IMG/VR virus record: IMGVR_UViG_3300036791_000399
Coordinates: 1-64,000 of that record
DNA length: 64,000 nucleotides
Strand: one strand, 5' to 3'
DNA from: a virus
This document shows, piece after piece, positions 766-55,901 of this stretch. A model generated the notes under the pieces. It was not told the origin of the DNA and did not search any database. It was given only the letters and a program-made list of their open reading frames with translations. A program made the position numbers and the translations under genes. Numbering within the stretch: the first letter of the stretch is position 1; every line of letters starts with the position of its first letter.

Positions 766-1344
766 ATGAAAAAGCCGCGTCGAGTACTAAAGCATGTAGG
801 CCTCAAGGGCTGGGAGACGCTAGTGCCGGAGTGGCCAGTACCGCCTCCGAGGCCTTATGTACCGAGTACAGAGCCATTGCCTTTGTACTATGACCCGTGT
901 GACTATCGTTCTGGTCCGCGTGGGAGACAGCCCTCTGCTGAGGCGAGGGCGATAGTCAGTCGGATGGCGCGGTTTGGATTTAGTGCGCAGAAGATTGCGC
1001 GACTGACGGGTTTCCGGCCTAGCACTTTGTACCGGTCATTCAGAGAAGAATTGACCACTGCCGCCGACCTCGCGGATTTGGAGGTTCTGCAGAGTGCGTT
1101 TGATCAGGCGGTTGGGGGACCGGAGCGGAATTTTCGGCATGCTGACGCCTCGATGACCCGTTTGTGGTTAGGGCAGCGGCTGGGTTGGAAGCAGCCGACG
1201 GCGTATGATCAGGAGCGTCGTGCGCAGACGACGATTGATTTGGATCTTTTGTCAGACGAGGAATTGCATGAGCTTGATAGGCTCGTTAGCCGAGCGAGTG
1301 ACGGCGGATCAGGTGAGGGAGGCTCTTCGTCGTCGGGCCAGTGA
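766..1344 (+). CDS. Terminase small subunit (probable)
   Basis: Product of 192 residues directly upstream of, and overlapping, the large terminase. Residues about 60-95 form a helix-turn-helix (RFGFSAQKIARLTGF followed by a Tyr/Arg-rich recognition-type helix), as expected for the DNA-recognition subunit that selects the packaging site and loads the large subunit. The start at 766 (MKKPRR) is preferred because the in-frame upstream extension to 613 is low-complexity sequence. The C terminus is Ser/Gly-rich. Assignment rests on position plus HTH; sequence similarity by eye is only moderate. Confidence 0.75.
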   Translation: MKKPRRVLKHVGLKGWETLVPEWPVPPPRPYVPSTEPLPLYYDPCDYRSGPRGRQPSAEARAIVSRMARFGFSAQKIARLTGFRPSTLYRSFREELTTAADLADLEVLQSAFDQAVGGPERNFRHADASMTRLWLGQRLGWKQPTAYDQERRAQTTIDLDLLSDEELHELDRLVSRASDGGSGEGGSSSSGQ

Positions 1345-2938
1345 TCAGCAGGCGAGGAATGTTGACCGCTCGGTTCCGGCGGTCAGAGCCAGATGCGAGC
1401 GGAGCCTTTACGCTTTCGTTCGGGAGGCTTGGCATGTTTTGGAGCCGGCGACGGAGTTTATTGGCAACTGGCATTTAGAGGCGATTTGCGAGCATTTGGA
1501 GGCGGTGTCGCAAGGCCTCATAACCAGACTGCTGATCAACATTCCTCCTGGCTCGATGAAGAGCCTGCTTGTCTCCAGCTTTTGGCCGGCCTGGGAGTGG
1601 GGTCCGCGCTCGATGATGAGCCTGCGCTATTTGACGACCTCATTCGCCGAGGTTGCCGTGGGCCGCGATTGCCGGCGGATGCGGGATCTCATTTTGAGTG
1701 ACTGGTATCAGAAGCACTGGCCCGATGTTCAACTCAAAAGGGTCGGGGAGTTTTCATTCGAAAACAGTATGACCGGATCCCGCGATGGCGTCGCCTTCGG
1801 CTCTCTGACCTCGAAGCGCGCTGATCGGTTGATCATTGACGACCCGCACAGCGTGATCAAGTCCGAGAGCAAGCTTGAGCGGCAGACGACCGTCCGCAAA
1901 TTCAGAGAGGGCGCGATCAACCGGCTGAACGATCAGAAGCGCTCGGCGATTGTGGTGGTGATGCAGCGGCTGCATTCGGGCGACATTGCCGGCGAGATCA
2001 TGGACACGGGGATGGGCTATGTGTGTCTGGTTTTGCCGATGGAGTACGAGAGCGGGCGGCATTGCAGTACAGAACTGGGGTTCTCTGACCCGCGCCGCGA
2101 GGAGGGGCAACTTCTGTGTCCGAGGCGGTGGCCGCGCGAGGTGTGCGACGACCTGAAGCGGGACATGGGGCCGGTTGGCTACGCCAGTCAGTATCAGCAG
2201 AGGCCGGTGCCGAGGGGCGGCGGGATCCTGCCGTACAATGGCTGGGAGTACTGGTGCAAGTCTGCGGCGCTGCCTTATGGCAGGAACGAGAACCAGTTCC
2301 CAGAGTTTGAGTACATTCTTGGCGTGGCGGACACGGCGTTCAACGAGAAGCAGGAGAACGACTACTCGGCGTTCGTTGTCTTAGGCATTTGGGCGAACTT
2401 GTATGGCCAGCCGCAGGTGATGCTGATCAGGGCGTGGCGGAAGCGGCTGAAGTTTCATGATCTGGTGCAGGAACTGATTAAGAGCGCCGAGAAGTGGCGG
2501 TGCGATCGGGTTCTGGTGGAGAACAAGGCGTCTGGGATCTCGGTGTTCCAGGAGATTGTGCGGCTGACGCGGGATGAGAGTTTCAGCGTGCAGTTGGTTG
2601 ACCCGAAGGGGGAGGACAAGGAGGCGCGGGCGAACAGTGTGTCGCACTTCCTCGGCGAGGAGCGGGATGACGGGACGCGGCGGGTGGGGATGGTCTGGGT
2701 GCCGTGCGTGACGCAAGCCGATGGGGCGGTATGGCCGCGCGACTGGGGGGAATTATTGATGGCGGAGGCCTCGGAGTTTCCCAAGGGCAAGCACGACGAT
2801 CTCGTCGACTGCTTTGTCCATGGGTTGCGTTTTCTGCGACTGCGTGGTTTGGTTCGGCGGGCTCGGGAGGTCGAGGTTGAGGTCGAGAGCGCGCTGCGGG
2901 ATCCGGGGACTGGGCCGCCGCCGCTCTATCCCACTTAA
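1268..2938 (+). CDS. Terminase large subunit (ATPase-nuclease)
   Basis: Motor and nuclease that drives DNA into the prohead. About 556 residues, normal for the family. Walker A is at residues about 92-98 (PPGSMKS, with Met in place of the usual Gly or Gly-Lys pattern), Walker B near 187-192 (RLIIDDP), followed by the MQRLH coupling-type motif. The C-terminal RNase H-fold nuclease shows its acidic residues in GVADTAF (about 352), VLVENKASG (about 415) and KHDDLVDCFVHGLRF (about 508). The start at 1268 has GAGGAA six bases upstream; it overlaps the small-subunit gene by 77 bases. Confidence 0.93.
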   Translation: MSLIGSLAERVTADQVREALRRRASDQQARNVDRSVPAVRARCERSLYAFVREAWHVLEPATEFIGNWHLEAICEHLEAVSQGLITRLLINIPPGSMKSLLVSSFWPAWEWGPRSMMSLRYLTTSFAEVAVGRDCRRMRDLILSDWYQKHWPDVQLKRVGEFSFENSMTGSRDGVAFGSLTSKRADRLIIDDPHSVIKSESKLERQTTVRKFREGAINRLNDQKRSAIVVVMQRLHSGDIAGEIMDTGMGYVCLVLPMEYESGRHCSTELGFSDPRREEGQLLCPRRWPREVCDDLKRDMGPVGYASQYQQRPVPRGGGILPYNGWEYWCKSAALPYGRNENQFPEFEYILGVADTAFNEKQENDYSAFVVLGIWANLYGQPQVMLIRAWRKRLKFHDLVQELIKSAEKWRCDRVLVENKASGISVFQEIVRLTRDESFSVQLVDPKGEDKEARANSVSHFLGEERDDGTRRVGMVWVPCVTQADGAVWPRDWGELLMAEASEFPKGKHDDLVDCFVHGLRFLRLRGLVRRAREVEVEVESALRDPGTGPPPLYPT

Positions 2939-5621: not shown

Positions 5622-5650
5622 TTGACAGTCTGTCGCGCTGTCTGCGACAG
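5622..5650 (+). promoter_or_regulatory. Promoter/operator candidate for the PEP-CTERM cassette
   Basis: TTGACA at 5622-5627 could be a -35 box. A perfect 7-bp inverted repeat with 7-base spacer (CTGTCGC at 5630-5636, GCGACAG at 5644-5650) lies where a -10 region and start would be, about 25 bases before the first PEP-CTERM gene. The repeat could be an operator. No good -10 hexamer is visible, so promoter activity is uncertain. Confidence 0.35.
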
Positions 5651-5673
5651 TGGGGAATACCGAGGATCATCCC

Positions 5674-6420
5674 ATGAAAAACCTTCTGCTCGCTACCACG
5701 CTTCTGGCTGCGGTCGGGGCGACGCCAGCCCATGCCCGTTTGCAGCTTTCGATCACCGCCAACGGCGCGACTTTTTCCTGTTTCGACGGGCAATTGTCGT
5801 GCGATCAGAGCGGCGGCGCGAATAACCTTCTCGTCATCGACCAGACCGTCGGCGGCGCGTTTGTCGAGGTCACTCTGGCCCAGAGCACGTTCGGGCACCC
5901 AGACATTCTCCAGCTTTCAAGCTCCAACATCGAGAACGTGAGCGGCGCTCCGATTCGGATCGGCTTGTTCGCCAGCGACACGGGCTTTTCGCCGCCCGTG
6001 CGCTCGATTTTGGAGAGCGGCTCGTTGACGTTCAACGACGCGGTTGGCTCTGGCCCGAGCGCCCTGTCGTTTTTTGCCGACACGCTCAACCGGCAGGGCG
6101 CGAATCCGACCAACACGCCAGGGACGAACCTCGATACGGTCGTCGGGACGCCGGTCACCAACCCGGATTCGTTCTCAGGCTCGCGTCTGTCGGCGTTTGC
6201 GTCCGACTCGCCGTTCTCGATGACGGAGAGCGCGTCCTTGGCGCTGATCGCTGGCGGCTCGATCACCGGCTTTAACCAGTCGATGCAGACCGCCGCGATC
6301 CCAGAGCCCTCGACTTGGGCTATGCTCGTCGCAGGCTTCGCGCTGTTCAGCCTTGTCGGCTGGAAGCGCAAGCGCACTGCGCGGGCGTTCGATTGCGAGG
6401 CGCAAGCGGGCAAATTGTAA
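5674..6420 (+). CDS. PEP-CTERM sorting-signal surface protein
   Basis: 248-residue exported protein. Residues 1-21 are a Sec signal peptide ending AHA. The middle is Ser/Thr/Gly-rich beta sequence like typical PEP-CTERM beta-sandwich proteins. Near the C terminus comes IPEPSTWAMLVAGF, a hydrophobic segment and a KRKR cluster: the signal that host exosortase recognises when it processes proteins destined for the surface or exopolysaccharide. Unlike most members, 14 residues follow the basic cluster. The start at 5674 gives the clean signal peptide. Finding this inside a phage gene block is unusual; see also the second copy at 6554. Confidence 0.9.
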   Translation: MKNLLLATTLLAAVGATPAHARLQLSITANGATFSCFDGQLSCDQSGGANNLLVIDQTVGGAFVEVTLAQSTFGHPDILQLSSSNIENVSGAPIRIGLFASDTGFSPPVRSILESGSLTFNDAVGSGPSALSFFADTLNRQGANPTNTPGTNLDTVVGTPVTNPDSFSGSRLSAFASDSPFSMTESASLALIAGGSITGFNQSMQTAAIPEPSTWAMLVAGFALFSLVGWKRKRTARAFDCEAQAGKL

Positions 6421-6425
6421 ATGGC

Positions 6426-6557
6426 TTGATTGCCCTATCCCTGGCGCTGGCGGTCTGGAGATTGACCGGCAGCGTTCTCGGATGGGCGGTGTTGTTCGTT
6501 CCCGGCGCGGTGCTTGTGACGATCGGGACCATCAGAGTTTTTGGAGGGGATGAATGA
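6426..6557 (+). CDS. Small membrane protein between the PEP-CTERM genes
   Basis: A 43-codon frame starting at TTG 6426 and ending in an ATGA overlap with the next gene. It encodes two closely spaced hydrophobic segments (ALSLALAVW and GWAVLFVPGAVLVTIGTI) and an acidic end. The stop-start overlap and membrane character support a real gene; the weak TTG start without an obvious ribosome-binding site is the main doubt. It might assist anchoring or export of the neighbouring surface proteins, which is speculative. Confidence 0.45.
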   Translation: MIALSLALAVWRLTGSVLGWAVLFVPGAVLVTIGTIRVFGGDE

Positions 6558-7264
6558 AAAGGCTGCTTCTGGCCGGGACGTTCCTGGCGGCGATCTGCGC
6601 GCCCGCGCTGGCGGTGACGAGCTTCCATGTCGGCGGCAATCTGGCCTCCGGCTCGGATCCGATCGTCCTCGGGCAATCGAGCGAGTTCAAGATCATCGAC
6701 AACAACGGCGACGCCATCAATTCGCCGCTGACGGTCATCTTCGCCATTCCGTTCGGGGCGAATGACCCGACCGTATCGAGCTTCGATTTCGATGGCGGCC
6801 CGCACCAGACGTTGGTCGGCTCGCTGCTCGGCAAGGGTCTGTGGATCCCAGGCGCGCCAGGAGCGCCGAAAGACCTCTATTCGTTCGTCGGCTGCACCAA
6901 GGGCTGCGACAACTCGATCAACGAGACGAACATCGATCTGGCGCTCGGCAAGGCGGGCCTCGGGGATCCCTCGTTCTTTGGCGTGTTCGAATTGACGATC
7001 AATCAGGCGTTCGCCGCGAAGAACGATTTCGAGGACGTGTTCGGCTCGTTCGCCAACGGAACGGTGATTGCGCCGCTTGCCGATAATGACGTGAACGGCA
7101 AGACGACGTTCTTCGACACCTCATGGACGAACGCCGGCTTCGTCAATGCGGCGGCCGTCGTGCCTACGATCCCCGAGCCGTCGACCTGGGTGATGCTGGT
7201 GACCGGCTTCGCCTTCATGGCGTGGGGCGCCGCCACCCGCAGGCGCCTGCGCAACTTCTACTAA
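6554..7264 (+). CDS. Second PEP-CTERM sorting-signal surface protein
   Basis: 236 residues with GGAGGGG upstream of the start. Residues 1-20 form a signal peptide (LLLAGTFLAAICAPALA). The mature part is beta-rich and includes a possible disulfide pair in VGCTKGCDN. The C terminus carries IPEPSTWVMLVTGFAF, then RRRLRNFY: a canonical sorting signal with Val instead of Ala after Trp. The body does not resemble the first PEP-CTERM protein, so the two are probably not a recent duplication. It would depend on host exosortase for processing. Confidence 0.9.
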   Translation: MKRLLLAGTFLAAICAPALAVTSFHVGGNLASGSDPIVLGQSSEFKIIDNNGDAINSPLTVIFAIPFGANDPTVSSFDFDGGPHQTLVGSLLGKGLWIPGAPGAPKDLYSFVGCTKGCDNSINETNIDLALGKAGLGDPSFFGVFELTINQAFAAKNDFEDVFGSFANGTVIAPLADNDVNGKTTFFDTSWTNAGFVNAAAVVPTIPEPSTWVMLVTGFAFMAWGAATRRRLRNFY

Positions 7265-7352
7265 TTGGGTTCGCGGCCGCCCTCCGGTTGGGCGAGAACG
7301 GAAGGCTGGGGGCGAGTGCCGCTATGCTCCCGGCGTAAAACGGGAGGTGCCA

Positions 7353-7478
7353 ATGATGCCTGACGAGGAAAATCCTCCGGTCGAGGTTAAGACCGAAGCG
7401 CCCGCAGAGCCGCCGCACGAGGCGGACGCGCCCGCAGAGCCCAAGTCCGAGGAGGCTGAGAAGGCTCCTCCAGCGTAA
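7353..7478 (+). CDS. Small acidic Pro/Glu/Ala-rich protein, 41 aa
   Basis: Two successive ATG codons (7353 and 7356) follow GGGAGG at 7342-7347. The product is a low-complexity acidic peptide built from Glu, Pro and Ala with a near-repeat (EAPAEPP and DAPAEPK). The good ribosome-binding site and the terminator-like hairpin just after the stop argue that it is expressed. No function recognised; such disordered peptides are common in phage late regions. Confidence 0.5.
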   Translation: MMPDEENPPVEVKTEAPAEPPHEADAPAEPKSEEAEKAPPA

Positions 7479-7492
7479 GAGTTCTTGCGTCC

Positions 7493-7527
7493 GGGGGCGG
7501 ACTTCCGGCCGTCCCCGTGTTTCTTCC
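7493..7527 (+). terminator. Terminator candidate after the PEP-CTERM cassette
   Basis: GC-rich stem 7493-7502 paired with 7507-7516 (GGGGGCGG against CCGTCCCC with one wobble and one mismatch), capped by a TTCC loop and followed by GTGTTTCTTCC. It is 15 bases after the preceding stop. The T-tract is interrupted, so efficiency is uncertain. Confidence 0.45.
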
Positions 7528-7599: not shown

Positions 7600-8064
7600 A
7601 TGTCAACAACGGTTAAGATCGTCGGCGGCTATCTTGAAGTCGATATGGGTGCGAGTGGTCAGCCCCCATTGGGAATTTGGGGAGGTCGTCCGCCGAACTA
7701 TGTGGATATCGGCGGGCCGCCCCCGCAGCCGGGTATTGGTGGCGGTCCTGGTTCTCTGCCGCCATGGGTGATGCCGCCGATCCACTATCCGCCGAGCGGT
7801 GGCGGCGGACAGCCTCCTGGGATTTGGGGCGGCGCAAACGAGCCATTCCCGACGCCTCCGATTTATATCCAGCCGCCGGGAGCGCCTATTCCTCCGGGCG
7901 CGCCGCCGTGGGTGTCCCACCCAATTCCGCCGACTGTCTGGCCAGAGCCGCCGGTCGAGGGCGTGACACCGACGATGATCGAATGGAAGAGCGGTTGGTC
8001 GCAGGCGACCGGCTGGGTGGTCATTGGCATTCCGCAAGCGCCGCACCCGACGCCGTCGGCTTAA
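7600..8064 (+). CDS. Pro/Gly-rich protein, 154 aa
   Basis: Starts at ATG 7600 after AGGAGAG. The first 12 residues form a beta strand (STTVKIVGGYLEV); residues 20-130 are a low-complexity Pro/Gly-rich stretch with repeated GIWGG and PPG units; the C terminus (EWKSGWSQATGWVVIGIP) looks folded. It could be an extended linker or surface-exposed protein. The family is not named to my knowledge. Confidence 0.6.
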   Translation: MSTTVKIVGGYLEVDMGASGQPPLGIWGGRPPNYVDIGGPPPQPGIGGGPGSLPPWVMPPIHYPPSGGGGQPPGIWGGANEPFPTPPIYIQPPGAPIPPGAPPWVSHPIPPTVWPEPPVEGVTPTMIEWKSGWSQATGWVVIGIPQAPHPTPSA

Positions 8065-8231: not shown

Positions 8232-8295
8232 GCCCTGGGGAGCATTTTCGTATAGAGTGACGGAGAGCGCAGAGGGACTGACCGGAGAGACTGAG

Positions 8296-8778
8296 ATGTC
8301 AGGCCTCGTGCAATTCATCGTCAACATCATCGCCCTCTTAGCCGCTGGCGGCATTTTCTTCGTCTCAATCGACAAGGTCGCGCCAGACGCTTTCTTCGCC
8401 CAGATCGCCAAGATCGCGATCGGCGCGCTCCTCCTGATCGCCCTGGTCGTCACTGTCGCCGCGGTGTTCGGGCTCGGCGGCGGCGCGATCGCTGTCTCGC
8501 CGCTCGGCGTCGTCTACTTCGCCGTCGCGGTGATCATCGCCGTCGTCGTCCTGTACGTCATCAACCTGATCGTCGATTGGTTCGGTTCGCAGATGGGCGC
8601 TGTTGCCCCGCTGGTCGGCTCGATTAAGTACATTCTCGGCGCGATCGTGCTGATCGGCCTTCTCATCGCGGCGGCGGACCTCTTGTTCGGAGTGCGCTTC
8701 GGCTCCTTTCCCGCAGGCGTCAAAACCGGAGCTTTGCCGACAAGAGAACAACTACTGCCACCCCGACGGGTGGCGTGA
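8296..8778 (+). CDS. Multi-pass membrane protein, 160 aa
   Basis: Start chosen at ATG 8296 (MSGLVQF) with GGAGAG upstream. Four hydrophobic segments are visible: about residues 4-24, 38-62, 68-90 and 105-135, separated by short loops; the C-terminal 25 residues are soluble. It could be a holin-type or superinfection-exclusion membrane protein, but no family is recognised and no endolysin gene is adjacent. Confidence 0.7.
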   Translation: MSGLVQFIVNIIALLAAGGIFFVSIDKVAPDAFFAQIAKIAIGALLLIALVVTVAAVFGLGGGAIAVSPLGVVYFAVAVIIAVVVLYVINLIVDWFGSQMGAVAPLVGSIKYILGAIVLIGLLIAAADLLFGVRFGSFPAGVKTGALPTREQLLPPRRVA

Positions 8779-8803: not shown

Positions 8804-9121
8804 ATGGTTGAAGCAAAGATCCAGCCGCTGACGGTGGCGCAAGCCCAGTCGGTGCTCTCGCGCGCCGCGCGCAATGTCGGCCGGGTCTATGGCGTCGGCT
8901 TGAGTGTCGGTCAGCAGGGCAACGAGCTTATTTTTGTCGATGACCTGGGCGACCCGGCGGTCGACGGCTTCGCCAACGACGGCGATCCGGCGATCGTCTG
9001 CGCCACTCAGCAGGAGATCGAGGACGGCTCGTTTCTCAGGCTGTTCGCCGCGCGCTCGCTTTACGCCGCCCTGGCGCTCAAGGTCATGGAGATTGTCGAA
9101 ACCGAGCCGCTGAAGCCGTGA
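8804..9121 (+). CDS. Unknown phage protein, 105 aa
   Basis: Preceded by a good GGAGG site. Soluble alpha/beta-like protein whose N-terminal half (LTVAQAQSVLSRAARNVGRVYG) is helical and whose end is acidic. No motif is recognised. The stop overlaps the GTG start of the next gene (GTGA), placing it in a coupled set reaching to 10285. Confidence 0.65.
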   Translation: MVEAKIQPLTVAQAQSVLSRAARNVGRVYGVGLSVGQQGNELIFVDDLGDPAVDGFANDGDPAIVCATQQEIEDGSFLRLFAARSLYAALALKVMEIVETEPLKP

Positions 9122-10975: not shown

Positions 10976-13642
10976 ATGCCTGCAGGCCTTGGGGCCATCC
11001 GTCTGCCGGCGTCACCGGTCGACGGAATGGACGATATGGCGACGCCGCCATTCGGCGGCCGCCAGGGCACCGTCGTCATCGACCTGGGGGACGACGAGCC
11101 CGACATCCCCGAGGTCGATACCGACAAGGGCGTCGAGATCGAGGGCGGCGGCGTCATCGTCCGAATCGGGCCTGCGCTCGCCGACAGGAAGAACCTAAAG
11201 TTCAACGACAACCTCGCCGAGGCGATCCCGCGCAATGTTCTTGGCGGGATCGCCGACGAACTGCTGCAGCGCATCGAAGAGGACAATAACTCGCGCCGCG
11301 AATGGCTCGACACCCGAGCGCGCGGCATCGAGATCCTGGGCCTGAAGATCGAGGCTATGCGATCGAGCGGGCCCGATGGCTCAGCGCCCCTGGAGGGCCA
11401 GTCGCAGATCCGCGCCAGCCTCTTGTGTGAGGCGGTCGTACGATTTGGGGCGAACGCCTTTTCCGAGCTTTGCCCGACCGACGGGCCGGCGAAGGTCACC
11501 GAGGACACCGCAGCCTCGACCGCCGATCTCGACGACCTCGCCGACGCTCTGGAGAAGGTGCTCAACCATTACCTGACGACGATCGACAAGCCCTGGGTGC
11601 CAGACACCGACGCGATGCTGTTGCGGGTCGGCGTCGATGGTTGCGTGTTCAAGAAGGTCTATCACGATCCCATTCTCCGCAGACCGATCTCGCGCGCCGT
11701 GTTCGGCGAAGACGTGATCATCAACAATTCCGCGACCTCGATCTATGACGCCAAGCGCATCACGCACCGGGTGATGATGGCGCCGTCGACCCTGCGCCGG
11801 ATGCAATTGGTCGGCGCCTATCGCGACGTGCCGCTCGGCGATCCTGGCTGGAAGCAGAAGGACGCGCCCGAGATTCAGTCGGAGCAGATCGGCGGCGTAC
11901 GCAGGAACGAGAGCTACGAGCGCGACGATCGCGATCACGAGATCTTCGAATGCTACTGCGAACTCGACCTGGAGGGTTTCGAGCACGAGACAGCCGGCGA
12001 ACCGGACGGTCTTGCCGTGCCTTTCAAGGTGGCGATCGATCGTGAATCGAAGGAGGTGTTGGAGATCCGGAGGAATTGGAACGAAGAAGATGACATGTGT
12101 TTGCCAAAGACGTTCTTCGTCCAGTTTCCATTCATTCGAGGCTTTGGAATTTATGCTATTGGCCTCTCGCATCTCTTGGGCAATATTACAAACGGCATCA
12201 CTGCTGCTTGGCGAGAGTTCATCGATGCCGGGATGTTCGCGAACTTTCCTGGCCTATTGGCTGCAAAGGGGGCTGGGCGGCAAGACAATTCTGTAATCAG
12301 GATCCCTCCTGGCGGCGTTAAGGAGATTGAGACCGGCGGCTTGCCGATACAGCAAGTCGTGATGGGAATGCCCTACAAATCCCCCGACGCCACCTTCGTT
12401 CAGTTCATTCAGCAGCTAAACTCAGAGGGCCAGCGCCTCGGCGGCACCGCCGACGTGATGGTGGGCGAGGGCCGTCAGGACGCGCCAGTCGGGACGACCC
12501 TCGCTCTCATCGAGCAGGCGATCAAACCGCTCCTCGCCACTCACAAACGATTGTGCGCCGCGCAATCGGATGAGCTTCAGCTTCTTGTCGAGCGGTTCCG
12601 CGAGGATCCCCAGGCGCTCTTCCGGCATCAGCGGCCGAGCGCCAACGGGTTTTCCTGGGACGAGCAACTGGTTCTCAAGGCGCTGAACACCTACCAGATC
12701 GTCACGCGCGCGGATCCGAACACCGCCTCGCACCTGCAGCGCATGTTGCGCAACGCCGCGCTCTACATGATGGCGAAGGACGACCCTGCCGCCTTCAATC
12801 TGATGACGGTGCGGCAGGTTTGCATCCGGGGCATCGGGTTCGCGAATCCGGCGCAGTTCATCAATCAGAACCCGCAGCCGCCGCCCCCGGATCCGAAGGC
12901 GATCGCCGCGCAGACGACTGCCCAGGCGGCGCTTCTCGACGCCCAGGCGAAGATGGGGCAACTGCAACTCGACGCGAAGAACGCGCCGATGGAGGCGCAG
13001 GCGCGGCAGATGGACGCGAGCGCCAAGATCCAGGCGGCTCACGCCGGGGTGCAGAAGCAGCAGCTAGCCACGCAGACCGCCGGGATGCAGGCGCGTAACG
13101 AGCAAATGAAGCCGGCGATGGAGCAGGCTGGGCGCCAGCACGAGGCGGAGCAGAACCAAGCCGATCGGCAGACCGACATCCTCAAGGAGCAGTTGAAACA
13201 CGCGCACGAGATGCGGCTCGCGGGGATGGAGCAGCAAGGCGACATGCAGAAGGCCGGCATGGAGCAGCAGGGCCGTTTGGCCGAAGTCGGAGCTAAACAC
13301 CAGACTGAAGTTGCTAAAGCCGGGATGCAGCATCAGGCGTCGATGGAGGAGGCGCATCTGCAGCATCAATCCGCCATGGCCCAGGGCGCGCAGGCGCATC
13401 AGACCGAAATGGCGAAGGGGCAGCAGCAGCAGGCCACAGCCATGGCCACAGGCGCGCAGCAGCACGAGGGCAAGCTCGCCGAGATCAAGGCTCAGCCTAA
13501 GCCCGCGGCCGCGGCGCCGAAGCGGGCGACCGGCGGCCGGGTGACGACGCCGTTCGGCGAGGCGCGGCAGGCGCCTGACGGGCACCACTACGTCAAGCAC
13601 CCGATTTCTGGGCAGTACTTCCGGGTGAAGAGGGGCGAATAA
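10976..13642 (+). CDS. Portal protein (podovirus type)
   Basis: 888 residues, large for a portal. It forms the dodecameric ring through which DNA enters and leaves the capsid. The first about 600 residues contain the usual wing/stem portal pattern (PLEGQSQIRASLLCEAV, then TLALIEQAIKPLLATHKRL as the stem helix region). Residues about 640-830 are a Gln/Met/His/Ala-rich helical repeat region that could be an extended barrel. Near the C terminus is RATGGRVTTPFGE, the recurrent GGR motif. A local stretch (12040-12400) uses AT-richer codons than the rest. Ends with TAATG coupling to the next gene. Confidence 0.82.
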   Translation: MPAGLGAIRLPASPVDGMDDMATPPFGGRQGTVVIDLGDDEPDIPEVDTDKGVEIEGGGVIVRIGPALADRKNLKFNDNLAEAIPRNVLGGIADELLQRIEEDNNSRREWLDTRARGIEILGLKIEAMRSSGPDGSAPLEGQSQIRASLLCEAVVRFGANAFSELCPTDGPAKVTEDTAASTADLDDLADALEKVLNHYLTTIDKPWVPDTDAMLLRVGVDGCVFKKVYHDPILRRPISRAVFGEDVIINNSATSIYDAKRITHRVMMAPSTLRRMQLVGAYRDVPLGDPGWKQKDAPEIQSEQIGGVRRNESYERDDRDHEIFECYCELDLEGFEHETAGEPDGLAVPFKVAIDRESKEVLEIRRNWNEEDDMCLPKTFFVQFPFIRGFGIYAIGLSHLLGNITNGITAAWREFIDAGMFANFPGLLAAKGAGRQDNSVIRIPPGGVKEIETGGLPIQQVVMGMPYKSPDATFVQFIQQLNSEGQRLGGTADVMVGEGRQDAPVGTTLALIEQAIKPLLATHKRLCAAQSDELQLLVERFREDPQALFRHQRPSANGFSWDEQLVLKALNTYQIVTRADPNTASHLQRMLRNAALYMMAKDDPAAFNLMTVRQVCIRGIGFANPAQFINQNPQPPPPDPKAIAAQTTAQAALLDAQAKMGQLQLDAKNAPMEAQARQMDASAKIQAAHAGVQKQQLATQTAGMQARNEQMKPAMEQAGRQHEAEQNQADRQTDILKEQLKHAHEMRLAGMEQQGDMQKAGMEQQGRLAEVGAKHQTEVAKAGMQHQASMEEAHLQHQSAMAQGAQAHQTEMAKGQQQQATAMATGAQQHEGKLAEIKAQPKPAAAAPKRATGGRVTTPFGEARQAPDGHHYVKHPISGQYFRVKRGE

Positions 13643-26219: not shown

Positions 26220-26594
26220 ATGGCTTGGGCTTCACGCTCTGGGAGGGCCGTCACTAATCCTGAACACCCGCGGGCGTTCGCCGTCTGCGATAATTGCCGC
26301 TTTTGGTACAACCATAACAAGCTGAAATGGCAGCGCGAGTGGCAGGGCACTCAGATCATCAACAAGGGCTTCCTGGTCTGCGAGGGATGTCTCGACAAGC
26401 CCAATCCGCAGCTTAAGGCGCGGTTGATGCCGCCGGATCCGGTGCCGATCGCCAATCCGCGGCCCGAGATCAACATCTACCCGCTCGACGTCTTTCATGT
26501 TGGAGTCGAAACGACTCCGCGCGCCGCGGTCGCGACCGAAACGGACGCCTCTCGCAACTGGCCAGCCGGCGCGCCGATGGAAATTGAGGATTAA
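26220..26594 (+). CDS. Conserved zinc-ribbon phage protein, 124 aa
   Basis: Contains RAFAVCDNCRFWYNHNKL, then LVCEGCLDKP: a four-Cys zinc-binding unit, followed by PPDPVPIANPRPE. I recognise this layout from phage hypothetical proteins encoded between adaptor and tail-fibre genes. Possibly a neck or tail assembly factor. The coding region ends one base before an HNH gene. Confidence 0.7.
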   Translation: MAWASRSGRAVTNPEHPRAFAVCDNCRFWYNHNKLKWQREWQGTQIINKGFLVCEGCLDKPNPQLKARLMPPDPVPIANPRPEINIYPLDVFHVGVETTPRAAVATETDASRNWPAGAPMEIED

Positions 26595-26595
26595 T

Positions 26596-26988
26596 ATGTC
26601 TAGTTGGAAACATGGACAAGCTCCTCAAGGAGCAGGGAAGCCTGAGACGAAGGAATATCGTGCGTGGCGCAATATGATACGGCGCTGCACCGAAATAAAT
26701 AACGCGAGCTATTCTTATTACGGCCCGCGAGGAATTTCGGTGTGCGAGCGCTGGCGGAATGATTTTATTACGTTTCTGGCGGATATTGGTAAGGCACCAT
26801 CTCAACAACATTGGCTCGATCGTATTAATGGTGACGGCAATTACGAGCCGGGGAATGTACGCTGGGTAACTCCGGCAGAATCTGCCCGTAACAGGCGTGG
26901 AAATTATCACACGCCAAAGAGAGAGGAAGCGGTGAAGAAGTGGCGGGAGGCTGGGCCAAGAGCGCGCCGCAGGGAGCTTCAGCCGTGA
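26596..26988 (+). CDS. HNH-family homing endonuclease, 130 aa
   Basis: Starts at ATG 26596, one base after the previous stop. Signature blocks: [53 protein letters not shown] and ARNRR, the compact HNH type found in phages and near introns. Low GC compared with both neighbours. Its stop overlaps the GTG start of the fibre gene, so the insertion has become part of the operon. Confidence 0.85.
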
Positions 26989-39601: not shown

Positions 39602-42600
39602 ATGGGCTCGGTATGCGGAGGCAGCAGCAACCAAACAACGACCAATTCGAGTTCGCCTCCGCCGCAGACGCAGGCTGACTACCAGGGCTTAATCAATCGC
39701 GCGACCGCGGTCGCGAACACGCCCTACACCCCCTATCCCGGCGAGCAGGTCGCCCCGCTCAGCAATCAGACAAACACCGGCCTCGCCAACCTCAACCAGT
39801 ACGCCTACGCCGCTCAGCCCTATCTGCAGAAAGCGGGCCAGATGACGCAGGGCGCTGCGGCGCCGGTCACTCCGCAGGCCTTCTCCGGCTCGGCGGTCGG
39901 CCAATTTGAGAACCCGTTCACGAGCGACGTGATTCAGGCGACGCAGAACGAGTTCAACAATCAGAACGCTCAGCAGGCGCAATTCCTCAATAGCCAGAAC
40001 ATTGGCGCGGGCGCATTCGGCGGTGATCGGGCGGGCCTGTCGCAGGCGATCTTGGCCGGTCAACAACAGACAGCCCAGGCCCCGGTAATCGCAGGCTTGA
40101 ATCAGGCGAACTACAATCAGGCGCTGGCGGAGTTCAACAATCAGCAGCAGACCGGCCTCGGCGCGCAGGAGTTCAACAATCAGCAACTCGGCCAGATGGC
40201 CAATCAGTACGGCCAGATCGGCCAGGGGATACAGACTGGAGGCCTGCAGGGCGCAACCGGCCAAATCACCGGAGGCATGGTCCCGCAGGGCGAACAGCAA
40301 GCGATCGACACCGCGCTGCAGAACAACTGGAACCTCGGGCAGGCTTACCCGTATCAGTCGACCGGATTCCTCGGCAACATCATCGAGGGGATCGGAAGCC
40401 AGCAGGGTGGGGTCGGGCAGACGACGTCGCCGGGGCCGAGCGGGCTCAGCCAAATCCTGGGCGCCGCCACCGCGGGCACGGGCGCGCTGTCGAACCTGTT
40501 CGGCTCTGCCGCTGGGGGCACGAGCGCGGCGGCCGGGATCGGCACCGCGCTCTCTTCCCTCTTCGGCTTCTCGGACGAGCGCCTGAAAGAGAACATCGTC
40601 CCGGTCGGCAAGACCTTCGACGGTCAGACGATCCATAAGTACAACTTCAAAGGCGACCCCAGGACCCAGATCGGGTTGCTCGCGCAGGAGGTCGAGCGGC
40701 GCCATCCTCATGCCGTCGCCGAGGGCCTGGGCGGCCTGAAGGGCGTCAACTACGACGCGGCGACGAGAGAGTCCGAGCGCGCCGGTTTCGCGGACGGCGG
40801 CGTTTCCCCCGGCTCGATCTTCGACCTCGGCGTCGGCAAGCAGGCGTCTCCGGCCGGCGCGCTGGCGTTGATGGGTGTTCCTGGCGCGAGCGCGGGGACG
40901 GGTCGGTTCGGCGCCGGCTCCCTGTCCATGACGCCAGGGGGCACGCTCTTCGGCCGCGGCGAAGCGCCGGTATCCACCGGAGGCAATGGACCGTCGCCTT
41001 CCAATCCCCTCCAGGGCGGCCCCTGGCAGCATCCCGCTGCGCCGTATACCGCCCCGCAGCCAGGGCCGATGCTAGCGCCTCGGTCCGGAGTGCAAATGCA
41101 AGCGCCAGCGGGGCTGGCCCATGGCGGTCGCGCAGGTTTCGACATTGGCGGTCCGACCGGGCTCGGCAATGTTGACATGACCAACATTCCGAACACGCCG
41201 TTCGTCGATTTCTCGACCCCGTTTGCGATTGCCCAGGGCACCGGGGTTCCAGGCCCCAACGCCGGTATTGCGAATATCGAGTTCTCCTCGGCCAGTGAGG
41301 CGGGAGGCGGGAACAAAGTCTCCGGGCAGACGATCGGCACGTCGAACCTCGCGCCGTCGCAGATCAATCTCTCGGGCGCCCCTCCTGGCACGACCTTCGC
41401 GCCGATCGACTATCAGAACCCAGGCAGCGACTTTCAGACCGCAGGCGCAGAGGCGAGCCTCGGCCCGCATTATTTCACCGTCGGCAAGAATGGTGAATTG
41501 GTCTACGGCGGCGAAGGCACGGGCCCGAGCGGCAGCGTCAATCAGGGGGAGTTGCTCCCTCGTCCCGGCGGGAACCTGCCTACCGACACGCCGAAGACTG
41601 AGAACGCGCCGCCCGTCGCCGCGCCTGCGGCTGGTCCTGCTGCTCCTGCGGCTGGTCCCGCTACGCCCGTTATCCCAGCGGGGGGTCGCTCAACGGGGTA
41701 CAGCGCGAGGGCCATAGCCAACAACCCGTGGCTGGCGAATATGTCTATTCCGGGTGATGCGTTGACTGCTCCCCAGGCCCATGGCGGCCCTGGCGCAGGC
41801 GCGAGCGGCGGTGGGGCGGGCGCGGGCGCGTGGACTGGCGGCAGAATGCCCTTCCAAGGCGGTGGAGGCCTCGATGACCCCCGCTACAGCTTCTATACGC
41901 CGACGACCGGCAACGCGCGCGGGGCGACCTATCATCCGCCAATCCCGACGCCGCCCACTCCGCAACCGATATATACGCCGCGTCATGTCGTGCGTCAGCG
42001 TGCGCCGGTCGCTCCGCCGCCGCCCAGGAACTACCCATTGCCTCCGCCTCGGCCGCAGGATCCGCCGCCGCCGCCCACAGTGGCCGCCGCTCCGATGCCG
42101 CTGCCAAGGCTGGATGATTTTCCGCCTCCGCACCCGGACTTCACCGCCCCCAGGTCGGTCGTCGACCCGATGTCTGGAACGAATGCGGGAATGAACCCGC
42201 CACAGGCTGGCGGGAGCATCTTCCATTCCCTCTTGCCCGCCATGCAGGGTCCGCGTGGCTACACGGCGTCGCCGCCGTCCGACCCCGATCCAGATAGGGC
42301 CCGAGGGATCGATATCGCCAGAGGCCTCCTGGACAACCGTCCAGGCTTTTGGAACTCGGGCGGCGTGATGGGCCAGATGCCGCTCGCGGGCGCCACCGGT
42401 TACACGCCGCAGGGCCAGGGCGTGACTGGCTTTGACAGCCAGGGCGCGGCGATGGGCTCGGGCAGCGTGGCGAAGAAGGCTGCGGGCTTCGACGGTCTGT
42501 TCGGCTCCGGTCTGCGCCAGGGCGGTCGCGTGAGCTTCGCGGACGGCGGTCTGAGCGGGCTCGGGATAGATCCGTCTGGGGTGCCGGTCATCCAACCGAT

Positions 42601-45600
42601 CCCCTTCGATATTCTCAAGGGTGTCCAGCCGTTGCCGGTGGGCAAGGGGCCGCCGCATCCGACCGATCCGAAGCAGCAGCAGTCGTCCAGCGACGCAGCG
42701 AATACCGGCGGGGCGCTCGGCAAGAGCATCAGTTCGCTCGCGAACGCTTTCAAGGGCAGCGGCAGCGGCGACGATGCCCTCGACGCCGCCATTCCGTCAG
42801 ATCTCTCCGGCGTCGACATGAGTGGCGATTTTGCCGCGTTGCCTGACGACACCTTCGACTTTGGCCTTGGCGGGATCGTACGACCGCATTTTGACGATGG
42901 CGGCGGCTCTACCGGTGATGGCGGCGACGGCGATGGCGGCTCTACCGGGTTCGGCGGCGGCGACACCGGATTTGGCGGCGACACCGGATTTGGCGGGATG
43001 GGGATGAGTGTCGGTTATGCTGGTTCTCCGACCGGTCCTGGCATCGGGTCTGACGCCGTGGCGGGGGGAACGGCGGGCGATACTGGCGGCGTCGCAGCAG
43101 GGGCCGGTCCTCACGGCACCGCAGGTGCTGTCGGTTACGGCGGCGGGAGCGTCGGCTATGGCGGGACGCATGGCGGCGGGACGGCAGCGGGCAGCGCAGG
43201 AAGCGCAGGTGCTGGTGCGGCTGGCCCAGGCGGGGCGGGCCCTGGCGGAGGCACGGGCGGCGGCGGACATGGAGTGGGTGCAAGTGCAGGAGCGCCAGGA
43301 AACGTCGTAGCAGGCGATTCGCCTCGCGCAATATCTACGGCACTCGAAAATGCGCTGCATCAACAGGCGCTAGACGCGCTTTACGGGATGCAGCACAGCA
43401 GCCCAATCGGCAACCCGCTTACGGAATTTGGAGTGCAGAGGGCCGGTGGGGTTAGCACAACTGGCGTTCCAGGCCTCAATTCACAGTCAATCGCTGATCT
43501 CTCTGGACAGAATGGTCCAGCTGCACAAGTTGCGGCTCGTCAGGCAAGGGCGGGGGTCGGTGCCCCTAGCCCAGGGCTGAGCCCTGCTGTCATTTCGGCG
43601 ATAAATAACGGAATGCGTACAAACGCATTTAACACTCGTCCGACAGGAGCGGAAAGCGTAAGCACGGCCGGTTTGAGCGCGCCCAGGGCGGCTCCGGCTG
43701 TGAGCACGTCGGTGAGCCCGTCAGTAAGTAAGCCGCCTAGCTTTGAGATTGCGCCGACTTATTCGTTTGCGCCGCGAGGCACGCCTGTTTCCTCGCCCGC
43801 GAATACGCCGACAGCGTTCGCGCCCCGAAACACGCCGACGGTCATCGCTAATCCTGGCGACACCACCCCAGGCCTCGGAGGGCTGACCACAGACCCTGGA
43901 AGCACCCAGCCAGCCGGGGGACGGATACCGGGCCTCGCCGTCGCAGGCGACCAGTATGCGCAGCAGGTGGGGCATGGCGGCCGCTGGGGCGGCGGCAGAA
44001 TTTCCTTCGGCCTCGGAGGAATTGCACGATCTGGTTATGCTGATGGCGGCACGCTTCTCGGTCCAGGTCCGCCCGCGCCTCCGGAGCCCCCGGAGCCTGC
44101 TCCGACCGCTCCTATTGCTCCTGCCGCGCCCCTGGCGGAGGCCGCGCCTGCGCCCGCATCGTCCGCATCGTCCGCATCTCCGTTCGTCAAGCCGACGCGC
44201 GAGCAGGTGCTCGCCTACAATGAGTCGATCGCGGCGAAGCACGGGAATAACCCGGACGTCGTGCGCAAGGTGCTCAGCGGCGAAATGGGGGGGAAGGATC
44301 CCTATCAGGTCGGCGACGCCGGATCGAGTTTCGGCCCCTGGCAACTGCACGAGGGTGGTATCAACCCGGCGATGAACCACCCCGGCATGGGCGACGAGTA
44401 TAAGGCCGCGACCGGGCACGATCCGAACGATCCGCATTACTGGCAGGAACAGAGCGACTTCGCGCAGTCGAAGATGGCGGAGCGGGGCCTGCAGCCCTGG
44501 GCGACGACGGCTGGCAAGCTCGGCCTTGGCCGCTATGCCAACTTGAACGCCGATGCGCCCTCCGGCGGTGCGCAGCCCGTCCAGGCGGAACAGGCGCAGC
44601 AGCAGACGCAGGCAGTGATGGACGACGCCGAGCGGGCTCCGGACAGGCGGATGATCCAGCCGAGCGTTGGCGACGCCTTGATGGCGGCCGGTTTCGCGAT
44701 GATGGCGGGCACCTCGCCGCACGCCATGGTCAACATAGGCCAGGGCGCGCTGGAGGGCATGAAGTACTACCAGAACCAGCGACAACTCGATCGCGAGTGG
44801 ATGAAGAACCAAGCTGAGATCGACAACTATGGCAGCGAGGCGCGCTATCGTGATGCCCAGACCTCTATCGCCACCCAGAACCTGAACATTGAAATGTACA
44901 AGGCCAAGCTCGGCCAGTGGAACGTCCAGTATCAGGGCTGGCTGGCGGCTGGCGGTCATGGCGATCCGCCTCCGATGCCAGCGTTGCCGACGTCGTTCGG
45001 CGGGTCGGCGACCACTAAGTCAGCGGCTGCGGCTGCGCCTGCCCCAGCGCCAGACTCAGCAGCGGCTCCGGCTCCGTCACCCACTGCGGCCACTCCCGCT
45101 CCGACCTCGACTGGCCCTGGCCCGCTTGTAGCCCCTAAGAAGGCCGCTGGAGCCCCTCCAGTTGCCGCGCCTACCGCGACACCCCCGAAGGCGGCAACGC
45201 CAGCCCCTGCGGCTCCTGCGGCTCCTGCTGACACGACTGCGGCTGCTGGTGCGCCATCCGGTGCGCCTGGGCCGACTGATCCGTTCTGGAAGAGCGTCCC
45301 TGCCGATCAGAACCCCTACGAACTGATCCGCTTGGCGAAGCTCTATCGGGCCGGGGCGGGCGTTAACCCCGAGAACGCGAAGACGGCGGACGAGTATGAA
45401 GCCCGCGCCCATTCCATCTGGGACAGCGGCATGGCTGGCGGCGTCCAGATCCCCGGCGTCTCGCAGCAAAAGGCGACGACGAAGTATAATGAGGAGATCG
45501 CGGGCGAGACTGGCAAGGAAGACGCCAAGCTCCCGGCGCAGATGGATAAGCGGGCTGAGATGGACACTCAGCTAAAGGAAATGCAGCACCTCATGCTGAC

Positions 45601-46147
45601 TTTCCAGCCGGAGCATTACGCCGAGCAAAAGGCGGAGATCGCCGCCGCGGTAAATTCGATATTCCCCGGCGCCGTCCCGCAGGGCGCGCTCGACAACGCG
45701 GCAAGCACGCAGCGCTTCCTCAAGGATCAGATGAACGCGGTGATGAACAAGGTTCAGTCGATGGGCGGAAGAGTCCTGGTCAGCGAGATCGAGACGTTCA
45801 AGCGAGCGGTGGCTTCGCCGAACATGCAGCCAGCGGCGGCCGCGGCGATCCTCGCGCAGATGCGCGGCCTGATGAAGTGGCAAGACCAGCACGATAATGA
45901 TTACCTCGATTGGCGCGACCAGAACGCCGCCGCGCCGAAGTCGCGGTTTGAAAGGCAGTGGCTCAAGGATCCGAAGAACAGCCCCGACACCTACATCACG
46001 AACGCGCGGCATAACTTCCCCTACCAGGGGCAGGTGATCCCGCCGAACGCTGAAGGGCGCGAGAAGGGCCAAGCCTACATGACGCCGAAGGGCCCACGAG
46101 TCTGGAACGGAACGGGCTGGGATCCGTTCGCAGCCCCGGCGGACTGA
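39602..46147 (+). CDS. Giant internal virion protein: S74 chaperone plus transglycosylase domains
   Basis: 2181 residues. Residues 1-300: Gln/Asn-rich region with NPFTSDV, AFGGDRAGLSQAIL, typical of internal proteins. About 322-392: S74 intramolecular chaperone/peptidase (SDERLKENI, QIGLLAQEVE), unusually internal. About 400-1500: Gly/Pro-rich with repeated GGR/ADGG motifs. About 1528-1650: lytic transglycosylase-like domain, LSGEMGGKDPYQ with probable catalytic Glu and GDAGSSFGPWQLHEGG. Then Ala/Pro-rich and a helical end; the last residues WNGTGWDPF look folded. It likely cleaves peptidoglycan locally during DNA entry. Confidence 0.75.
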   Translation: MGSVCGGSSNQTTTNSSSPPPQTQADYQGLINRATAVANTPYTPYPGEQVAPLSNQTNTGLANLNQYAYAAQPYLQKAGQMTQGAAAPVTPQAFSGSAVGQFENPFTSDVIQATQNEFNNQNAQQAQFLNSQNIGAGAFGGDRAGLSQAILAGQQQTAQAPVIAGLNQANYNQALAEFNNQQQTGLGAQEFNNQQLGQMANQYGQIGQGIQTGGLQGATGQITGGMVPQGEQQAIDTALQNNWNLGQAYPYQSTGFLGNIIEGIGSQQGGVGQTTSPGPSGLSQILGAATAGTGALSNLFGSAAGGTSAAAGIGTALSSLFGFSDERLKENIVPVGKTFDGQTIHKYNFKGDPRTQIGLLAQEVERRHPHAVAEGLGGLKGVNYDAATRESERAGFADGGVSPGSIFDLGVGKQASPAGALALMGVPGASAGTGRFGAGSLSMTPGGTLFGRGEAPVSTGGNGPSPSNPLQGGPWQHPAAPYTAPQPGPMLAPRSGVQMQAPAGLAHGGRAGFDIGGPTGLGNVDMTNIPNTPFVDFSTPFAIAQGTGVPGPNAGIANIEFSSASEAGGGNKVSGQTIGTSNLAPSQINLSGAPPGTTFAPIDYQNPGSDFQTAGAEASLGPHYFTVGKNGELVYGGEGTGPSGSVNQGELLPRPGGNLPTDTPKTENAPPVAAPAAGPAAPAAGPATPVIPAGGRSTGYSARAIANNPWLANMSIPGDALTAPQAHGGPGAGASGGGAGAGAWTGGRMPFQGGGGLDDPRYSFYTPTTGNARGATYHPPIPTPPTPQPIYTPRHVVRQRAPVAPPPPRNYPLPPPRPQDPPPPPTVAAAPMPLPRLDDFPPPHPDFTAPRSVVDPMSGTNAGMNPPQAGGSIFHSLLPAMQGPRGYTASPPSDPDPDRARGIDIARGLLDNRPGFWNSGGVMGQMPLAGATGYTPQGQGVTGFDSQGAAMGSGSVAKKAAGFDGLFGSGLRQGGRVSFADGGLSGLGIDPSGVPVIQPIPFDILKGVQPLPVGKGPPHPTDPKQQQSSSDAANTGGALGKSISSLANAFKGSGSGDDALDAAIPSDLSGVDMSGDFAALPDDTFDFGLGGIVRPHFDDGGGSTGDGGDGDGGSTGFGGGDTGFGGDTGFGGMGMSVGYAGSPTGPGIGSDAVAGGTAGDTGGVAAGAGPHGTAGAVGYGGGSVGYGGTHGGGTAAGSAGSAGAGAAGPGGAGPGGGTGGGGHGVGASAGAPGNVVAGDSPRAISTALENALHQQALDALYGMQHSSPIGNPLTEFGVQRAGGVSTTGVPGLNSQSIADLSGQNGPAAQVAARQARAGVGAPSPGLSPAVISAINNGMRTNAFNTRPTGAESVSTAGLSAPRAAPAVSTSVSPSVSKPPSFEIAPTYSFAPRGTPVSSPANTPTAFAPRNTPTVIANPGDTTPGLGGLTTDPGSTQPAGGRIPGLAVAGDQYAQQVGHGGRWGGGRISFGLGGIARSGYADGGTLLGPGPPAPPEPPEPAPTAPIAPAAPLAEAAPAPASSASSASPFVKPTREQVLAYNESIAAKHGNNPDVVRKVLSGEMGGKDPYQVGDAGSSFGPWQLHEGGINPAMNHPGMGDEYKAATGHDPNDPHYWQEQSDFAQSKMAERGLQPWATTAGKLGLGRYANLNADAPSGGAQPVQAEQAQQQTQAVMDDAERAPDRRMIQPSVGDALMAAGFAMMAGTSPHAMVNIGQGALEGMKYYQNQRQLDREWMKNQAEIDNYGSEARYRDAQTSIATQNLNIEMYKAKLGQWNVQYQGWLAAGGHGDPPPMPALPTSFGGSATTKSAAAAAPAPAPDSAAAPAPSPTAATPAPTSTGPGPLVAPKKAAGAPPVAAPTATPPKAATPAPAAPAAPADTTAAAGAPSGAPGPTDPFWKSVPADQNPYELIRLAKLYRAGAGVNPENAKTADEYEARAHSIWDSGMAGGVQIPGVSQQKATTKYNEEIAGETGKEDAKLPAQMDKRAEMDTQLKEMQHLMLTFQPEHYAEQKAEIAAAVNSIFPGAVPQGALDNAASTQRFLKDQMNAVMNKVQSMGGRVLVSEIETFKRAVASPNMQPAAAAAILAQMRGLMKWQDQHDNDYLDWRDQNAAAPKSRFERQWLKDPKNSPDTYITNARHNFPYQGQVIPPNAEGREKGQAYMTPKGPRVWNGTGWDPFAAPAD

Positions 46148-54801: not shown

Positions 54802-55287
54802 ATGATCGTGCTTGGCATCGACATTGGCGTCAGTGGGGCTATTGCGGTCCTCTCCGACGGCGCCATCGTCCAAGTCCACGATATGCCGATCCTGCGCGAC
54901 GGGCCCAAAAACCGGGCGAGCGTCAACGCGCCGCTCCTGGCCGAAATCATCGCCACAAGCCACGCGCAGACAGTGTTCATAGAGTGGGTTGGCGTCCGTC
55001 CTGGGGAGGGCGCTGTCGGGGCATTCGCCTTCGGGCGGGCGCGCGGCGTTTGTGAAGGCGTTTGTGCGGGGCTCGCGATCCCGGTGGTGTTCATCACCAG
55101 CCCGCAGTGGAAGCGCGTTCACGGCATCGCCCCCGGCAAGAACGGCGCGAAAGACGCGGCGCGCTCTAAGGCGATTGCGCGCTGGCCCGGTAGTGCGGAC
55201 CTGTTCAAACGAGCCAGAGATGACGGACGCGCGGAGTCATGTTTAATTGCCACCGCAGGCATGTTAATAAGCGAGAATACTCGATGA
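54802..55287 (+). CDS. RuvC-like Holliday junction nuclease
   Basis: 161 residues. First catalytic Asp in GIDIGVSGAIAVL, Glu in VFIEWVGVRPGEGAVGAFAF, and late acidic residues in KRARDDGRAESCLIA give the RNase H-fold DEDD set. Resolves recombination or packaging branch structures. Its last residues (ISENTR) are coupled by ATGA to an HNH gene, and the original C terminus may have been altered by that insertion. Confidence 0.82.
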   Translation: MIVLGIDIGVSGAIAVLSDGAIVQVHDMPILRDGPKNRASVNAPLLAEIIATSHAQTVFIEWVGVRPGEGAVGAFAFGRARGVCEGVCAGLAIPVVFITSPQWKRVHGIAPGKNGAKDAARSKAIARWPGSADLFKRARDDGRAESCLIATAGMLISENTR

Positions 55288-55901
55288 GCGCGCTCGTTGA
55301 CCTGACTGGACGGCGATTTTATAAATGGACGGTTCTCAATCGCCACGATGCGAAGTGTGGCCAAGCACTTCTCTGGGTATGCGTGTGTGATTGCGGCGTA
55401 AAGCGCCCAGTTCTTGGCAATTCATTACGGCGCGGCAAATCGACAAATTGTGGCTGCATACAGTACGCACAGCTTTCTATACGTCAAAGAAAGCATGGGT
55501 ACTGCGAGCGAGGCCATAACAGTCGCGCGTATACACTTTGGCGGCACATCAATCAGCGTTGCTATAATCCCCGTTGCAAGGACTATCCATACTACGGCGG
55601 GCGGGGGATCGCGGTTTGCGATCGATGGCGCTCCTTTGAATCTTTTTATGCTGATGTCGGCGATCCGCCGCCAGATCTAACTTTAGACCGCGAAGATAAC
55701 GATGGCGATTATGAGCCAGGAAATTGGCGCTGGGCGACCCGGTATCAACAGGCCCACAACAGACGGAAGCCTAAGAAGACTGGGCCAATGCCATCTGAAA
55801 CTCGCGCTAAACTTTCAGCGGCTCTCAAGGGCCGGATACGTTCGCCGGAGCATTGCGCGAACATAAGCGCGGCCAAGAGACAAGCAGGCAGTCGGGCATG
55901 A
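55284..55901 (+). CDS. HNH homing endonuclease with zinc ribbon and NUMOD3-like tail
   Basis: 205 residues. CVCDCG and NCGCI zinc-ribbon pairs; YYGGRGIAVCDRWRSF; LDREDNDGDYEPGNWRWAT; C-terminal MPSETRAKLSAALKGR and SPEHCANISAAK, a NUMOD3-type DNA-binding motif. Low GC relative to neighbours. Exactly joined to the RuvC-like gene end and to the next gene start by ATGA overlaps. Confidence 0.88.
   Translation: MSALVDLTGRRFYKWTVLNRHDAKCGQALLWVCVCDCGVKRPVLGNSLRRGKSTNCGCIQYAQLSIRQRKHGYCERGHNSRAYTLWRHINQRCYNPRCKDYPYYGGRGIAVCDRWRSFESFYADVGDPPPDLTLDREDNDGDYEPGNWRWATRYQQAHNRRKPKKTGPMPSETRAKLSAALKGRIRSPEHCANISAAKRQAGSRA

Follow-up and report, generated by a model that had tools for sequence, protein, structure and literature searches.

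The window analysed here, a stretch of 64,000 nucleotides, comprises bases 1-64000 of an IMG/VR virus record of 74,075 b (74 kb). Two genes for exported proteins, PEP1 and PEP2, are placed in it between the terminase and the portal gene of a phage (Table 1). The frame of a microprotein bridges the two, overlapping PEP1 at its 3' end and PEP2 at its start, and genes for a Pro/Gly-rich protein and a multi-helix membrane protein lie further downstream.

Table 1. Genes and candidate signals of the cassette and of the phage record that carries it (window positions)
Feature	Positions	Strand	Length	Basis and remarks
Terminase large subunit	1331-2938	+		phrog_38, E 2e-75; upstream flank
TTGACA-like hexamer and 7-bp inverted repeat upstream of PEP1 (candidate)	5624-5650	+		by eye
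PEP1, exported protein	5674-6420	+	248 aa	PF07589, TIGR02595
Two-helix microprotein	6393-6557	+	~50-54 aa	HMM; TTG start at 6393 inferred
PEP2, exported protein	6554-7264	+	236 aa	TIGR02595
Terminator-like hairpin (candidate)	7492-7517	+		9-pair stem, T-rich tail
Pro/Gly-rich protein	7600-8064	+		G-[IFY]-W-G-G / QGLP-type repeats
Multi-helix membrane protein	~8296-8778 (listed ORF 8257-8778)	+		homologues on PEP1 contigs
Portal protein	10976-13642	+		phrog_1216, E 1.5e-20; downstream flank
Tyrosine integrase, same phage record	61089-62330	+		phrog_1, E 1.6e-36; PF00589

Elsewhere in the window, the 2181-aa product of positions 39602-46147 has a DNA-ejection-protein domain (phrog_4287) at its N-terminus and is probably a fused protein of the ejection or internal virion type. 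Related ORFs of one further family are scattered over the phage (34072-34548 on the minus strand, 55239-55901 and 26497-26988 on the plus strand) and recur at locus L010 and in the sister phage L026, where the relative lies immediately 3' of the terminase gene; these are possibly homing endonucleases.

The presence of two exported proteins with PEP-CTERM sorting signals inside a phage gene block, the core of the original prediction, was borne out by the profile searches and by the terminase and portal flanks. PEP1 consists of a signal peptide (residues ~1-21), a predicted beta-sandwich domain (~24-208) and a PEP-CTERM sorting tail (209-234) that scores above the gathering score of PF07589 (E 7.9e-6) and above the cut-off of TIGR02595. 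The tail of PEP2 likewise exceeds the TIGR02595 cut-off, and with 20.2 against 20.7 bits it remains 0.5 bit below that of PF07589. Both proteins have the full tail architecture of a C-terminal PEP motif, a hydrophobic helix and a basic cluster. TIGR02595 found matches in none of 14 control genomes. A regular expression for the tail (PEP, hydrophobic stretch, basic residues) recovered 176 ORFs from the loci fetched (duplicates included). The reversed sequences (2.16 Mb) gave no match, and neither did 159 kb of phage loci retrieved via another gene. Moreover, nearly all relatives have an N-terminal signal peptide, as judged by eye and by rule; in the AlphaFold2 model of PEP1 the signal region forms a helix at residues 5-13, at low confidence.

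The regulatory signals that had been proposed to frame the cassette fared less well. The inverted repeat CTGTCGC-N7-GCGACAG at 5630-5650 is one of 13 inverted-repeat pairs of such order in 2 kb, and its count is thus not above chance. No common operator was seen by eye in the upstream regions of the relatives, and a sigma-70 promoter scan at the cassette found none. The hairpin behind PEP2 is likewise not above chance, given that 4 terminator-like hairpins were observed where 2.5 are expected.

The small membrane protein that had been noticed between PEP1 and PEP2 turned out to be a conserved gene. The core of the microprotein spans 6426-6539, with the TTG at 6393 as the most likely start, and comprises two hydrophobic helices in which a T, a P and a G are invariant in the aligned set. 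An HMM of this core, searched in six frames against about 165 loci, yielded 22 matches. Twenty of these lie on the same strand as a PEP-CTERM gene, at -43 to +213 nt from its end; the other two are found just upstream of a PEP-CTERM gene (L145) and at a locus where PEP1 is cut by the contig end (L068). The microprotein is also present at L122, L050, L044, L022, L127 and others. Since most of the searched loci had been fetched via their PEP-CTERM genes, an unbiased scan of the viral collection was run with the microprotein itself, using a narrow alignment. It returned 9 loci, all 9 of which adjoin a PEP-CTERM gene. Eight are on contigs already known for such genes, and the ninth lies on a new contig (L180) together with genes for a portal and a Pro/Gly-rich protein; there the microprotein gene overlaps the end of a PEP-CTERM gene from another family. 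No above-chance match was found in Pfam, PHROGs or 398 bacterial genomes. Judged by these alignments and neighbourhoods, the microprotein is a conserved, previously undescribed partner of phage PEP-CTERM genes from unrelated families.

The cassette had been delimited to 5622-7527. Its core was confirmed, and the conserved block was found to run past that end, to approximately 8778. The Pro/Gly-rich ORFs are part of this extension: of 46 such ORFs (duplicate loci included), 39 have a PEP-CTERM ORF on their own strand at a distance of no more than 1.7 kb. The Pro/Gly-rich protein, seen in the window and at L059, L065, L070, L041 and L180, has repeats of the GIWGG / DQGLPG type and is conserved over a stretch at its C-terminus; no signal peptide was seen. 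The membrane protein that follows shares 77-81% identity with its counterparts in other PEP1 phages (adjacent in L003; also in L010 and L040).

The search of phage databases for PEP-CTERM proteins that had been suggested with the original prediction gave, for PEP1, 57 matching loci of 47-76% identity among the IMG/VR viral contigs. These contigs are metagenomic, many are fragments, and the locus counts include near-duplicates. For PEP2 approximately 15 viral contigs have matches that extend well past the tail (31-42% identity), and other PEP-CTERM families are present in many additional viral contigs. Among 50,697 cultured-phage records, six phage PEP-CTERM proteins found no match at E values up to 1 or 0.1. 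Outside the viruses, a pattern scan of 84,980 prokaryote species (one genome each) found no relatives of PEP1. Its HMM obtained solely tail-dominated matches in 398 Pseudomonadota genomes (best 31 bits), and a plasmid search gave a Sphingomonas tail match and nothing else. A plasmid search with the PEP-CTERM protein of L131 gave no match. L131, L132 and L136, whose IMG/VR names resemble isolate-genome numbers, each have a 180-aa PEP-CTERM gene and could yield a cultivable host.

The genomic context of PEP1 is that of a phage gene. Its neighbours are terminase, portal, scaffold and major head protein genes, and in other loci genes for endolysin, DNA-ejection and tail-fibre proteins. At 28 loci, some of them duplicates, the distance from a PEP-CTERM gene to a homologue of terminase or portal is at most 4 kb; many of these loci have the gene between the two. 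The phrog_2 terminase was found in 19 and the phrog_1216 portal in 22 of the 44 records searched, and one or the other is present in 25 or more of the PEP1 records searched. One contig (L047) has a 192-b terminal overlap with 191 of 192 bases identical, which suggests a phage genome that is closed or permuted. These data bear directly on the reading that the cassette is host DNA, joined by mistake or mis-called as viral. That reading draws on the metagenomic nature of the IMG/VR records, here without a completeness estimate. It has to contend with the terminase and portal that flank the cassette on a single contig, with the recurrence of the PEP1 family on many contigs with phage genes, L047 among them, with the lack of any match in the prokaryote genome collection and with a G+C of the cassette genes equal to that of the adjacent phage genes. 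We consider it very improbable, and for the PEP1 family mis-assembled host DNA was ruled out by the recurrence on phage contigs together with the absence from the prokaryote genomes. The cassette is thus phage-borne, to which its presence and absence among sister phages also testifies.

The comparison with sister phages revealed the cassette as variable cargo. The terminase relatives of the sisters L025-L030 are about 86-90% identical to that of the window. Sisters with a terminase of 85-87% identity are without the cassette: in L025 and L026 it is absent between the terminase and the gene at 8804, and in L028 the homologue of the latter gene is reached 1.2 kb past the terminase, so that by length this phage is cassette-free as well. 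The sister L027 and the contigs L089, L092, L093 and L098 have a different PEP-CTERM gene plus a relative of PEP2 instead. At least three unrelated families, every one with a sorting tail, supply the second gene across the phages. Absence from otherwise close sister phages is the mark of a moron, and the position and orientation of the cassette, between terminase and portal or by endolysin or tail genes and often antisense, are typical of one too. In several loci PEP1 is antisense to both neighbours, which implies a transcription of its own. In addition, most of the pairs tested gave a dN/dS of about 0.1-0.25 for the mature domain of PEP1, which indicates that the protein is maintained by purifying selection.

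The original prediction had the phage use the sorting machinery of its host, and this dependence is supported: the tails are of the exosortase type, and an exosortase was absent from all 44 phage records searched, many of which are fragments. Sorting would therefore have to rely on a host exosortase, and it is for this reason that the host enzyme is proposed as the processing enzyme. All 8 sampled bacterial genomes with tails that match the phage profile have an exosortase, against a base rate of 80 in 398. As to the identity of the hosts, portal relatives in genomes gave a single weak Dyella match (29%) and a tRNA search found nothing. When the portal of one carrier lineage is compared, its closest relatives in culture are phages of Ochrobactrum and Sinorhizobium, which makes Alphaproteobacteria the likely hosts. 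An integrase was detected in the window phage and in only 10 of 44 records searched, many of which are fragments; lysogeny may thus not be a general trait of the carriers.

The AlphaFold2 model of PEP1 (pLDDT 80) comprises a signal helix, a beta-sandwich and a C-terminal helix. Among solved structures, those of glycan-binding modules and of a surface glycan-binding protein come closest to it (Z 7-9, 3-4.6 A). The likeness to carbohydrate-binding modules (CBM4/16/61-like) is borderline, with Z below 9 and a Foldseek TM of about 0.3. The mature domain is thus predicted to resemble glycan-binding modules, a borderline likeness of the model and no proof of binding. A model of PEP2 was discarded (pLDDT 55).

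Known PEP-CTERM proteins attach exopolysaccharide to the cells that make them (PMC9850573, PMC12188702). The reading that we favour, at a probability of roughly 55%, is that of an accessory (moron) cassette by which the phage displays proteins on the surface of the infected cell through the host exosortase. PEP1 and PEP2 made by the phage would cross the inner membrane by Sec, upon which the signal peptide would be cleaved, and the C-terminal helix would hold them in the membrane. The host exosortase would then cut both proteins and pass them to the outer surface or the exopolysaccharide, where the glycan-module-like domain of PEP1 may bind or cross-link surface polysaccharide. The microprotein would probably reside in the inner membrane and help to hold the tail or to hand it to the exosortase. 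On a cell surface altered in this way fewer competing phages would adsorb, or the cells would remain aggregated; superinfection exclusion would be the most plausible benefit. The more encompassing picture is a portable surface-display module of phages, probably of Alphaproteobacteria, that would be made up of the Pro/Gly-rich protein, PEP-CTERM cargos (one or two, interchangeable) and a dedicated microprotein as their link to the host exosortase. Such a viral hijack of exosortase with an adaptor of its own, across unrelated cargo families, is a tentative proposal to which we would give somewhat less than even odds.

The main rival to surface display is a role late in infection, in the release from exopolysaccharide-coated cells. 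The proteins would flood the exosortase, or loosen the exopolysaccharide and the outer membrane, so that the progeny can leave the cell or the biofilm, and would act in lysis and not in the lysogen. The location among late genes, in some phages by lysis genes, is compatible with this as well: in L059 and L061 the genes next to PEP1 encode endolysin and small membrane proteins, and elsewhere PEP1 is found among late structural genes. Moreover, with an integrase found in so few records many carriers may be lytic, and exclusion by a lysogen would not apply to them. Nevertheless, in many loci PEP1 is antisense to the late genes on either side and is therefore not simply a member of the late operon, and a mature domain that is more conserved than the tail would be unneeded in a mere decoy of the exosortase. 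A release factor is in our estimation a good deal less probable than surface display. A component of the virion or of its assembly, with no more than a resemblance to PEP-CTERM proteins, would account for the structural genes in the neighbourhood and for the beta-sandwich, a fold common to phage fibre domains, and yet a Sec signal peptide and a membrane-anchor tail take the protein out of the cytoplasm, the site of tailed-phage assembly, and the same architecture is found again in several unrelated families. This we regard as improbable.

The architecture of signal peptide, PEP motif, hydrophobic helix and basic tail is shared with the PEP-CTERM/exosortase (EpsH) sorting system of Gram-negative bacteria (Haft et al. 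2006, PMC1569441), as are the little homology beyond the tail and the several different substrates per genome. In contrast to that system the cassette is phage-encoded, in phage gene blocks, lacks an exosortase gene and has a conserved microprotein, and the PEP1 family was not found in the bacterial genomes searched. The small, exported, floc-forming PEP-CTERM proteins of the PepA type (Aquincola, Zoogloea) are tied to bound exopolysaccharide but are encoded by chromosomal, host-regulated genes (PMC9850573), and the likeness that we claim concerns the tail only. As an accessory exported or surface-acting protein that varies between sister phages, the cassette products resemble Cor of phi80 and N15 and the Ltp lipoproteins of Streptococcus phages (PMC11436027, PMC3952083). 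They differ in the host exosortase route proposed here as opposed to a lipoprotein or outer-membrane route, in that many carriers are without a detected integrase, and in that exclusion is here a conjecture. The impression that no phage system of this kind had been described was upheld, insofar as no phage-borne PEP-CTERM gene was found in the searched open-access papers on PEP-CTERM or exosortase and phages, nor in the cultured-phage collection.

Exosortase sorting is poorly understood in both its mechanism and its substrates. Substrates encoded by phages, numerous and so far overlooked, would demonstrate that this sorting is exploited by phages. The phage PEP-CTERM proteins would provide small model substrates for the study of this sorting, together with a candidate adaptor. 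They would also represent a new class of candidate superinfection-exclusion proteins beyond the well-studied enteric systems, and would tie infection to the exopolysaccharide, biofilm and floc properties of environmental bacteria.
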